A stretch of DNA of 60,096 nt from Flavobacteriales bacterium (GTDB taxonomy: Bacteria; Bacteroidota; Bacteroidia; Flavobacteriales_C; GCA-002722245): positions 93,823-153,918 of the forward strand of contig CANFBW010000001.1 in assembly GCA_947444925.1 (NCBI GenBank), in the 5' to 3' direction. The notes below the pieces were generated by a model, which was not told the origin of the DNA, ran no database searches, and saw only the letters and a list, made by a program, of their open reading frames with translations. Of the stretch, positions 22,675 through 25,932 are shown one piece after another (positions within the stretch are counted from its first letter, which is position 1; every line of letters starts with the position of its first letter). The position numbers and the translations under genes are program-made.

Positions 22675-23331
22675 TTAACGCGAAAGCGACAAAATCCCTT
22701 TGTAGCTAAAAGCTTTGCCACTGTACAATGTGCCTTGCACGTCGTAGCGGTATGAACCTGTAGGAACAGGTTTTCCGTCGTAGGTGCCATCCCATGGGAG
22801 GTCGAGTGATTCACTTTCAAAAATCTCTTCGTTGTTCATGGACGTGATGGTGAATTTAATGCTTTTCACTCCCTTGCCGATGGGCGCCCATTTGTCAAAT
22901 TGATTGTCGCCATTTGGGGTAAATGCATTGGGCACTGTTTCGATGCCGGATGCACATGTGTACACGCTTATGTTGCGCATCACCGGTTGATGTAGGTGTT
23001 TGTAAGAGATCAATCGGAAGGCTCCTTCCTGTGCGATTTTAATGTAGGGGAGAGAAGAAATGCGAATGAATTCATTTAGCGCATTTCTCTTGAACCATCT
23101 TAGAGAGTCGACACTTTCTCCATTGAATACCAAACGCAAATCATTGTTTTCGTAATAGCAGGAATTGAGTTCGTAGTTGCTGCTGTCGCCAATGAGAAAG
23201 TCTTGCGTTTGCGCTTGAAAATTAGGATCGTCAACAATTTGCTCTTGGTTGTCTTCTCTGGTTTCGCATGCGAAAAAGAGCAAGGCAAAAAGCATAGCTA
23301 GTGTAAGGCGGTATAGTGCAGTATTTATCAT
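22675..23331 (-). CDS. Lipoprotein with T9SS type B (CHU_C) sorting domain
   Basis: A 218-residue protein with a type II signal peptide (lipobox FFAC, Cys22). The residues after the Cys are strongly acidic (ETREDNQEQ), as in the surface-export signal of Bacteroidota lipoproteins. The last ~85 residues are a gliding-motility-associated C-terminal (type B) domain: VPNAFTPNGDNQFDKWAP, FTITSMNNEEIFES, LPWDGTYDGKPVPTGSYRY. Type B cargo normally needs a PorP/SprF-like partner; such a barrel is encoded immediately upstream, with an ATGA 4-base overlap. Finding both a lipobox and a type B domain in one short protein is unusual. It is the third gene of the sigma factor operon. Confidence 0.82.
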   Translation of the reverse strand: MINTALYRLTLAMLFALLFFACETREDNQEQIVDDPNFQAQTQDFLIGDSSNYELNSCYYENNDLRLVFNGESVDSLRWFKRNALNEFIRISSLPYIKIAQEGAFRLISYKHLHQPVMRNISVYTCASGIETVPNAFTPNGDNQFDKWAPIGKGVKSIKFTITSMNNEEIFESESLDLPWDGTYDGKPVPTGSYRYDVQGTLYSGKAFSYKGILSLSR

Positions 23332-25355
23332 AGCACTGTTTTTTTTGATTTTGAATTGGGCTCTATCAAATAGCGAATTCCTGCTGTGACAAATCCGTTG
23401 TTGCTGTCGTTGATGTACAATGATTCTTTACTCGCTTTCATGCCCCAACTCATGTGCAATCGCAGTTGGTCTTTGATGTTGCAGCCAACAGAGATTGTTG
23501 CATAGTTAGAGTTTTCATAAGAAACTCCTGCGAACACTTTGTTGTTGTAAGAGAACATGCTGCCTATGGTGTAGAGTGCGCCAATGGAAGATATTCGCTT
23601 GACAAAGGCGGTTGCAGTAAATTTTTTGGTCACCGGAATGTTCACGCCAGCGATGGAGGTGGTAGACAATTGCAGGTCGGGTTTTTTGCTGATTGCTGTT
23701 TGAAAAATATTGTCAATAGTCACGCCCGCAAAAACCAAAGGATGACTCAGCCACAAACCAGCTTTGTAATTGATGTATCTTTCTGGTTGAGAGGCTGCTT
23801 GATCGTTGGCCACCAATACTGCTCCTTCTGCTGTTTTTTGCCAGAAATTAATGTTGTTGGTGTTGAGCACATTGTTTGCGTATGTGGCGCCAATACCTCC
23901 ACGCAGCTGCGTAAACTTATTGATGCTGTGTGTGTATGAAAGTGTGATGTTCATGTTGTCTGACTGCCAGTTGTTGTTGTGAATACGGTAGTAATAGCCG
24001 CCCAGCCCCAGTTTGTGTTTTTTGTCAACGCTGCCGTCTACCGACAAATACATGTTGGCAGGCTCTTGCAAATGAAATTCTTTTTTGTTGGTTTCTGTAT
24101 CTACAATTTTGTTTTCCCAAGGACTGTTGTAAAGGAATTTTACTGCTGTATGCTGATCAGCTCCAGCAATGGCCGGATGCTCCCAAATGTTGGTGAGCAC
24201 TGAAGTCGGCAAGCTAGAAGGCATGGTGGCGTATTTGAAAATAGCACCACTCCAATCCGCATCATTGGGCAAGGTAGATAAAGTGTCAAATTGATCTTTG
24301 TTGTCGTCGATTAGGGTTTTGTGGGCAGCAGCAATTTCATTGAAAATAATTTTGTTTCGCACTTCGCTTTGCGTGTGGGCGTGGTTGCTCGTATTTGCAA
24401 TTTCATTGTGCAAAGCAGTATTTTGATTTGCATTCGCTTCATTTGTATTTGTTGTTCCGAAAGCTATTGCAGTGCCGTTGATATTGTTATTAGCGCCATT
24501 GTTTTGATTGGTATTGCTGTTGTCAATGTTGCTTACAGTATTGTTGTTCTTGTTGTTATTGTTGTTCTTGTTGTTGTTGTTGTTGTTGTTGTTGTTGTTG
24601 TTGTTGCGCACCTCGTCGATAGCATTTCGACCAGCACTTGATGCAATTGAAAATTTAGCGGCGCTGCTGTTTTCTTCCTTCGAAGTTGTGTTGTGTTTTG
24701 TTGTTGCAGTTTCAAGTAGTGTTTCTTTTTGCGCAGCGCTATTGTTTCTTGCGACTTCTAAATGGTTTTGTTTTGCAGTGTTTTTCTTGTCAATGATGTG
24801 CTGCTCTGATTTCGCTGCGCTTTCATTTTTTGCACTTTGGTTTTGATAGGCAGCGTACGTCAGCCAGCCCATCAGTATTAGTGCTGCACTGGCGGCAACT
24901 GTTCTCCATTGGAAAAATCCGCTGCTCACTTTTTGGCCTGCTCCATTAAGTAGAGCTTCCATTTGTTGCCAATGCGCGGCGTTATAGCTTGTTTTTCCGC
25001 TATTTAATAAGTCAGCTGCTTTTTGTTCAAAAGCATTACGCGGTGCTGGAATATGATCGGCGATGGCCTCCCAGTGCTTGGTTTGGTAGGGTACTTCGGC
25101 GTTGTCGAATGTGTTTTTGACTCCTTTTTCAAAAGGGCTTGCTTGGGCATCTTGCAGTTGCGCTGCAAATTGATCCCAAGCGCCAGTGGCTATGGGCACT
25201 GAGGCTGCATTAAAAACAGATTGCACCTGCTCCTCAAAAGGAGTAGGCGCCTCGGCAGCGTCAAGACGCGCCTTCAACTGTTCCCAATGCTGAGGGTTGA
25301 AGGGGATTTCGGCTCCTTCGAATGATTGGTTAATATGGTCGTTAAAGTCGCCCAT
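23328..25355 (-). CDS. Putative dual-membrane anti-sigma factor fused to a PorP/SprF-like outer-membrane barrel
   Basis: A 675-residue mosaic protein. Residues 1-140 hold four tandem repeats of 34-36 residues, each F....-F..A..P-..HW (Trp at 24, 60, 95 and 129). One hydrophobic helix follows (VAASAALILMGWLTYAAY, ~153-170). Residues ~171-400 are a polar linker rich in Asn, Ser, Thr and Ala with poly-Asn at 251-272. The C-terminal ~270 residues look like PorP/SprF: NIWEHPAIAGADQHTAVKFL, KHKLGLGGYYYRI, GLWLSHPLVFAGVTIDN and a final barrel strand. The ATG is one base past the sigma factor stop. This is the layout of dual membrane-spanning anti-sigma factors known from Bacteroides. The sigma-binding role is inferred; no DUF or ZAS motif was seen. 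Confidence 0.75.
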   Translation of the reverse strand: MGDFNDHINQSFEGAEIPFNPQHWEQLKARLDAAEAPTPFEEQVQSVFNAASVPIATGAWDQFAAQLQDAQASPFEKGVKNTFDNAEVPYQTKHWEAIADHIPAPRNAFEQKAADLLNSGKTSYNAAHWQQMEALLNGAGQKVSSGFFQWRTVAASAALILMGWLTYAAYQNQSAKNESAAKSEQHIIDKKNTAKQNHLEVARNNSAAQKETLLETATTKHNTTSKEENSSAAKFSIASSAGRNAIDEVRNNNNNNNNNNNNKNNNNNKNNNTVSNIDNSNTNQNNGANNNINGTAIAFGTTNTNEANANQNTALHNEIANTSNHAHTQSEVRNKIIFNEIAAAHKTLIDDNKDQFDTLSTLPNDADWSGAIFKYATMPSSLPTSVLTNIWEHPAIAGADQHTAVKFLYNSPWENKIVDTETNKKEFHLQEPANMYLSVDGSVDKKHKLGLGGYYYRIHNNNWQSDNMNITLSYTHSINKFTQLRGGIGATYANNVLNTNNINFWQKTAEGAVLVANDQAASQPERYINYKAGLWLSHPLVFAGVTIDNIFQTAISKKPDLQLSTTSIAGVNIPVTKKFTATAFVKRISSIGALYTIGSMFSYNNKVFAGVSYENSNYATISVGCNIKDQLRLHMSWGMKASKESLYINDSNNGFVTAGIRYLIEPNSKSKKTVL
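24541..24606 (-). repeat. TTG/CAA trinucleotide microsatellite encoding poly-Asn
   Basis: Thirteen uninterrupted TTG units (24568-24606), extended by imperfect units back to 24541. On the minus strand these are AAC codons that encode an Asn run interrupted by two Lys, in the periplasmic linker of the anti-sigma/barrel fusion. Unit loss or gain keeps the frame, so linker length can vary between strains. Confidence 0.9.
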
Positions 25356-25356
25356 T

Positions 25357-25932
25357 TTATCTTTTGCTCACCATTGCTATTTTATCCGTCAATATTTTTT
25401 TCAAGTTTACCTTCGCTTTCGATAAGTTCGATTTTGAAGTGCCTACGCTGATGTTCAAGGCATCGGCAATTTCTTGGTGCGAAAATCCATCCACTACATA
25501 CATATTGAACACTTGGCGGTACGCCGTTGACAAGTCTTGCACGCAAGCCAATAGTTCCTCGTAACTTATGTTGTTTAATATGGCATCGCTGTCGCTCTCT
25601 TCATCGTCGCTCATTGCGTCGCTGTGTCGTTCGTTTAGCTCTACCATACTGTTGTTGACCTTGTTTTTTCTGATGTGGTCAATCGCAGTGTTCACCATAA
25701 TGCGTCGTATCCATCCTTCGAAAGATCCTTTGTCGCCGTATTTAGCGATGTTGTTAAACACTTTGATGAAGCCTTCTTGGAAAATGTCCAGAGCCTCATC
25801 ATTGTCTTTTGCATAACGTCGGCATACCACCATCATCTTGCCGTAGTAAGCCTCGTACAAACGCTGCTGACTGCGACGGTCGCCATCTATGCAACCTCGA
25901 ATGATAATTGTATTGTCTTTTAGAATCCCCAT
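25357..25932 (-). CDS. ECF-type RNA polymerase sigma factor
   Basis: A 191-residue sigma-70 family protein with only regions 2 and 4. Region 2: NDEALDIFQEGFIKVFNNI and GSFEGWIRRIMVNTAIDHIR, which bind core polymerase and the -10 element. Region 4: LSTAYRQVFNMYVVDGFSHQ and EIADALNISVGTSKSNLSKA, a helix-turn-helix. A longer than usual acidic linker (SDAMSDDEESDSDA) lies between them. The stop codon is one base before the ATG of the anti-sigma/barrel fusion, typical of ECF sigma/anti-sigma pairs. Its promoter and regulon are unknown. In Porphyromonas the ECF factor SigP works with PorX; whether this is such a factor cannot be said. Confidence 0.95.
   Translation of the reverse strand: MGILKDNTIIIRGCIDGDRRSQQRLYEAYYGKMMVVCRRYAKDNDEALDIFQEGFIKVFNNIAKYGDKGSFEGWIRRIMVNTAIDHIRKNKVNNSMVELNERHSDAMSDDEESDSDAILNNISYEELLACVQDLSTAYRQVFNMYVVDGFSHQEIADALNISVGTSKSNLSKAKVNLKKILTDKIAMVSKR

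Follow-up and report, generated by a model that had tools for sequence, protein, structure and literature searches.

A conserved Flavobacteriales operon encodes a sigma factor, a Dma-like protein ending in a PorP/SprF barrel and a lipoprotein with a type B secretion domain

We analysed a stretch of 60,096 nucleotides from a Flavobacteriales bacterium (assembly GCA_947444925.1, contig CANFBW010000001.1, positions 93,823 to 153,918; hereafter, the window), which carries a tight operon of three genes on its minus strand. The first gene encodes an extracytoplasmic function (ECF) sigma factor. It is followed, after a gap of 1 bp, by the gene of a 675-residue protein having N-terminal repeats, a transmembrane (TM) helix, a long tether and a C-terminal barrel of the PorP/SprF type. 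The third gene overlaps the second by 4 bp (23328-23331) and encodes a 218-residue lipoprotein ending in a type B domain of the type IX secretion system (T9SS). An initial annotation, made from the letters of the DNA, had placed the three genes here, and its coordinates, strand, spacing and overlap proved to be exact. The features are collected in Table 1.

Table 1. Features of the operon; positions are those of the window and residues those of the encoded protein.
Feature	Positions	Strand	Evidence
ECF sigma factor, 191 residues	25357..25932	-	Pfam: Sigma70_r2 3.7e-18, Sigma70_r4_2 1.2e-15
Candidate ECF promoter for autoregulation, GCAACC-N15-CGTC, 20 bp before the start codon of the sigma gene	25953..25977	-	Pattern search (G000:C1:119775-119799)
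675-residue Dma-like fusion (presumed cytoplasmic repeats, TM helix, tether, PorP/SprF barrel)	23328..25355	-	Pfam, AlphaFold model, hydropathy, hidden Markov model (HMM)
Four tandem helical repeats, residues 4-136, consensus FEEKIKEKLASGEVPYNPSDWDAMEAKL, presumed sigma-binding	24948..25346	-	Iterated HMM, each unit E < 1e-8
Single helix, predicted for the inner membrane, about residues 152-170	24846..24902	-	Hydropathy peak in all orthologs; helix 150-192 in model
Disordered tether, presumably periplasmic, residues 171-382 (212 residues), contour about 76 nm	24210..24845	-	Composition, length, predicted local distance difference test (pLDDT) under 50
TTG x22 microsatellite encoding the Asn run	24541..24606	+	Tandem Repeats Finder
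PorP/SprF (FadL/PorV-type) barrel, predicted for the outer membrane, residues 383-667	23355..24209	-	PF11751 5.7e-24; predicted fold
Lipoprotein: signal peptidase II (SPII) signal, immunoglobulin (Ig)-like domain (two invariant Cys) and, at the C-terminus, a type B domain of the T9SS	22675..23331	-	CHU_C 2.7e-07, TIGR04131 2.8e-10
Type B C-terminal domain (CTD; CHU_C), lipoprotein residues 132-212	22696..22938	-	Pfam, alignment of 13

The domain order of the 675-residue protein is that of the dual membrane-spanning anti-sigma (Dma) factors, which are defined by an N-terminal anti-sigma domain, a TM helix, a disordered tether, a C-terminal barrel and an adjacent ECF sigma gene; the gene of Dma2 also lies in a three-gene operon (PMC13088901). 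We consider this architecture in the window to be real, conserved and well supported, and the mechanism that we propose for it to be plausible. On balance, we lean towards reading the operon as a signalling unit of the Dma type, with a captured pair of T9SS shuttle and type B cargo acting as sensor and reporting the docking state of the partner lipoprotein.

The barrel is the part that ties this protein to the T9SS. Residues 393-643 matched PF11751 (PorP_SprF) with 85.5 bits (gathering cut-off 22.3), and the PorP family model TIGR03519 gave 84.2 bits, just below its cut-off of 90.55. Because the latter cut-off was missed, we treat the barrel as homologous to PorP/SprF, yet do not file the whole protein in that family. 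The cleavable signal peptide typical of PorP/SprF proteins was absent, the N-terminus consisting of soluble repeats followed by the internal helix. The AlphaFold model of the protein alone (mean pLDDT 52 overall) has the C-terminal barrel that the initial annotation expected, with about 14-15 strands over residues 403-664 and a pLDDT of about 75-85 for most of it. From structural comparisons with Foldseek and VIA, we observed that the barrel matched 8gl6_F (Z 22.5, rmsd 3.0 A, 245 residues aligned) and 6h3i_F (Z 22.0), and with VIA also FadL (Z 22.9). We take chain F of both 8gl6 and 6h3i to be PorV of the T9SS translocon. PorV and the PorP-like proteins are 14-stranded barrels of the FadL family (PMC9143113). 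As modelled, the C-terminus of the 675-residue protein is a T9SS shuttle-like barrel of the FadL/PorV type.

The remainder of the protein has the anatomy expected of a Dma factor. The repeat unit is 28 residues long, and its four copies were modelled as four helix pairs. By HMM, five copies of the unit are present in the ortholog of genome G003, one in the fusion of genome G306, and between one and eight in relatives having other barrels. Eight tandem copies of this presumed sigma-binding repeat were seen in the Dma-like proteins of L101 and L102 (genomes G210 and G326). How many sigma molecules are held could depend on this copy number. The tether is 24% Asn and includes a run of 12 Asn, and across this type of fusion its length ranges from 129 to 243 residues (contour 46-87 nm), which, if extended, is long enough to span a periplasm in every member. 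Slippage in the copy number of the TTG microsatellite would alter the tether length in frame. A search of PDB sequences with the family profile gave only weak matches to designed proteins. Repeats, helix, Asn-rich linker and barrel had all been named in the initial annotation, and all were recovered by HMM, hydropathy, composition and Pfam, respectively. Its further proposal, that a single polypeptide crosses both membranes, agrees in anatomy with the published Dma family (PMC13088901). Its suggestion that this protein tells the sigma factor about T9SS cargo attachment or secretion status is plausible.

The first gene of the operon had been called an ECF sigma factor, and the Pfam matches agree, covering sigma-70 regions 2 and 4 only, as is the rule for this group. 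Its identity with the orthologs is 62-93%. Upstream of it, the GCAACC box is kept across the aligned regions of eight orthologs, and the GCAACC-N15-CGTC pattern suggests that the operon is autoregulated. Besides the operon, this pattern precedes a second ECF sigma gene of the genome and a small number of unrelated genes.

The third gene was likewise confirmed as a lipoprotein with a C-terminal type B T9SS domain, by its lipobox (LFFAC), by CHU_C (31 bits; cut-off 27) and by TIGR04131 (40.2 bits; cut-off 35). In an alignment of 13 homologues, the lipidation Cys is invariant (13/13); conservation extends to the terminal Arg, to a PxxFxP motif and to two other Cys that might form a pair. Two beta domains were modelled (pLDDT 87), one Ig-like and the other the C-terminal type B domain; Foldseek and VIA searches with the lipoprotein returned generic Ig-like matches only (best Z 9.5 over 76 residues). 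Five motifs of the type B domain are each required for secretion in F. johnsoniae (PMC12618676). The same genome has the T9SS core genes SprA and GldL. Every homologue of the lipoprotein is lipidated, an uncommon trait among T9SS substrates and a point that the initial annotation had not taken up, so that the protein may or may not use the T9SS.

Next, we looked for the three-gene order in other genomes, as the initial annotation had proposed. It was present in all eight genomes of the window's taxonomic order that are at least 90% complete (one family, two genera); the two genomes of that order in which it was not seen are 74-77% complete. In the window, a divergent methyltransferase gene lies upstream of the operon and an M42 peptidase gene downstream. 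The flanking genes differ between the two genera, and the three operon genes stay together. The order was found also in another family (G306, family f5), where a sigma gene is followed by a 624-residue fusion (one repeat, PorP_SprF 9e-33) and an overlapping gene for a CHU_C lipoprotein (5.4e-12). Conservation across the eight family genomes and G306 argues that this gene order is not due to chance, and it dismisses the possibility that the operon is unique to the window's genome. A misassembled fusion was also ruled out, the reading frames being intact in seven genomes; in the eighth (G004), the linker is interrupted by an assembly gap. Relatives in the genome_contigs collection were metagenome-assembled genomes of Flavobacteriales or Bacteroidetes, one of which carries a doubtful Chryseobacterium label.

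The same pairing of barrel and lipoprotein occurs outside the fusions. In families f4 and f46, a PorP with a signal peptide (333-356 residues) is followed by an overlapping gene for a CHU_C lipoprotein, with no adjoining sigma gene. In total, a CHU_C lipoprotein gene lies immediately downstream of 9/9 fusions of this type and of the 4/4 nearest free PorPs. In a maximum-likelihood tree, the barrels of this set that were entered, 12 in number, form one group (support 100/99), which stands apart from the other PorPs of the genome and from the fusions of a second type described below; fused and free barrels of the group share a common origin. As the closest non-fused PorPs also carry the downstream lipoprotein gene, we suggest that the sensor arose by capture of a shuttle-cargo pair. 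The simplest history compatible with these sequences would be that the PorP-lipoprotein pair came first and that its barrel was later joined to a Dma-type anti-sigma region, a direction that we infer, since the tree was rooted at its midpoint only. The phylum sample, when searched with the barrel profile, held no further fusions at E <= 1e-22; the two other matches were ordinary PorPs at T9SS loci.

The repeat region is associated with sigma genes well beyond this family. In 17/17 sampled out-of-family loci carrying it (L054, L055, L101-L115), the gene with the repeats is directly preceded, on its own strand, by a gene for an ECF sigma factor. In the loci scanned, the Pfam barrel, where one was seen, was OMP_b-brl and not PorP. 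The Dma layout that these loci share beside an ECF sigma gene is our reason for ascribing a probable anti-sigma activity to the repeats. At one of them (L055:2775-3902, genome G013), the operon is Dma-like, its barrel is of the OMP_b-brl_2 type and its third gene encodes a lipoprotein with a PKD domain.

Two further loci of the window's genome join sigma genes to T9SS type B parts. At L010:5421-7046 (contig C3) lies a fusion of 541 residues, whose N-terminus (DYFEGNLSG...) is unrelated to that of the first. It continues with a single TM helix and a tether rich in Asn and ends in a PorP/SprF barrel (5.6e-25); its gene is preceded by one for an ECF sigma factor and followed by a split PorP gene. 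The initial annotation could not have noticed this fusion. The second type is shared by 8/8 near-complete genomes of the family and by G194, which belongs to another family, and its barrels form a clade of their own (support 100/99). In genus g2, the PorP adjoining it is followed by a large protein, and the one tested (L183) carries CHU_C (3.2e-18). At the third locus (L201:3342-8621, contig C4), an ECF sigma gene is followed by a gene for a 441-residue protein with one TM helix and an unrecognised C-terminal region, and then by an overlapping gene for a 1133-residue type B cargo having an AgmC-like N-terminal domain. Together, the two loci indicate a recurrent coupling, within this lineage, of sigma/anti-sigma genes to type B components of the T9SS. 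A run of 12 Asn is present in the second fusion as well; the locus of that fusion (L010:5421-7534) is flanked by genes for a TonB-dependent receptor-like protein and a lipoprotein, and the PorP gene beside it is split into two frames (L010:4412-4855 and 4948-5376) by a frameshift or an assembly error.

These observations led us to the following model. The repeats would keep the sigma factor inactive in the cytoplasm; the TM helix would lie in the inner membrane, the tether would cross the periplasm and the barrel would sit in the outer membrane. The lipoprotein would be placed on the outer membrane, where its type B domain would dock on the barrel. PorP-like proteins are known to bind proteins with type B CTDs (PMC9143113), and the genes of cognate partners mostly lie side by side (PMC12618676). 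Docking might follow passage through the T9SS, or surface export independent of it, as reported for PorA of P. gingivalis; we keep both routes because PorA needs no T9SS translocon to reach the surface. The state of docking would then pass through the N-terminal segment of the barrel and the tether and lead to release of the sigma factor, which would autoregulate the operon and act on further targets.

Several observations weigh against this model. The repeat region has low pLDDT in the AlphaFold model. In the window copy, the TM segment is only weakly hydrophobic, with a hydropathy peak of 1.41 (1.6-2.4 in the orthologs). The whole-genome search for a regulon with GCAACC-N15-CGTC found six sites, against six for the reversed-pattern control; as the pattern is no commoner than its control, we claim no regulon. 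Lipidation being unusual for T9SS cargo, the partner may never pass the T9SS at all.

The operon could instead encode a Dma-type anti-sigma system that senses the general state of the outer membrane or of barrel assembly, with no role for the barrel and lipoprotein beyond anchorage and with the T9SS irrelevant to the signal. Most relatives of the repeat region do carry OMP_b-brl_2 or unrecognised barrels and have no T9SS partner, and Dma1 and Dma2 govern vesicle formation (PMC13088901). However, it is then hard to see why the type B lipoprotein is kept with all nine fusions and with the free homologous PorPs, and why a second, independent PorP fusion adjoins PorP and type B genes; we regard this explanation as rather improbable. 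Somewhat less probable still is a sensor of lipoprotein export, in which a surface-export route moves the lipoprotein and its arrival at the barrel reports on that route rather than on the T9SS. The invariant lipid-attachment Cys and the arrival of PorA at the surface without the T9SS translocon (PMC7712824) are in its favour, whereas the type B domain is conserved up to the last Arg, and F. johnsoniae requires such motifs for secretion by the T9SS (PMC12618676).

The 675-residue protein might also be a functional shuttle that serves its lipoprotein while being fixed to the inner membrane, its N-terminal region having no role in sigma regulation. Pairs of free PorP and lipoprotein without an adjoining sigma gene are consistent with such a function, but the repeat region lies beside an ECF sigma gene in every sampled locus, with unrelated barrels, and the spacing to the sigma gene here is only 1 bp, which makes this explanation very improbable. 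We retain the captured shuttle-cargo pair as the preferred sensor. A broader claim, which we advance tentatively and judge to fall a little short of probable, is that one polypeptide reads whether its own shuttle-type barrel has a partner docked on it, be this a T9SS type B protein or a type B-like one anchored by lipid, and signals straight to a cytoplasmic sigma factor, and that such a trans-envelope readout evolved at least twice through fusion of anti-sigma and PorP/SprF parts.

By what route transcription is informed of the state of surface T9SS cargo is an open question, and for PorA the link from the surface to the inner membrane has been stated to be missing (PMC7712824). With a shuttle-type barrel and a presumed anti-sigma region in one chain, this question becomes tractable at the level of a single gene or a single domain. 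If our proposal is true, the Dma family would widen from vesiculation to the T9SS, and an evolutionary route from a free shuttle-cargo pair to a sensor is offered.

We compared the operon with the known systems that it resembles. The likeness to the Dma factors lies in the domain order, the adjoining ECF sigma gene and, for Dma2, the three-gene operon (PMC13088901, and Pardue 2024 as cited there); it is a likeness in architecture to Dma1-3 of B. theta. The operon differs from them in its PorP/SprF barrel, in the type B CTD lipoprotein as third gene and in the four tandem repeats as presumed anti-sigma region. Unlike the PorP/SprF shuttles that work with type B cargo (PMC9143113, PMC12618676), the 675-residue protein has repeats, a TM helix and a tether in place of a signal peptide; its cargo is encoded downstream, small and lipidated, and a sigma gene lies inside the operon. 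PorA of P. gingivalis, which has a signal peptide, an Ig-like domain and a CTD, relays a surface signal to SigP, and SigP governs T9SS genes (PMC7712824). The PorA-PorXY-SigP pathway is a working precedent and shares with the operon a small Ig-like and CTD protein that signals from the surface toward an ECF sigma factor. PorA, however, has PorV as its binding partner and signals by way of a two-component system and a link that is undefined, whereas here the barrel and the presumed anti-sigma region are in one chain and the CTD is of type B. In the relay of TonB-dependent receptors and FecR-type proteins, the state of an outer-membrane barrel is also passed to an ECF sigma factor. That relay uses separate proteins, whereas here one polypeptide would suffice, with a barrel of another family. 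By title and abstract, neither of the two papers found to name SprF and anti-sigma together is about such a fusion. The Dma layout is already known; what is new here is a T9SS shuttle-type barrel in a Dma-like layout, paired with a type B lipoprotein.

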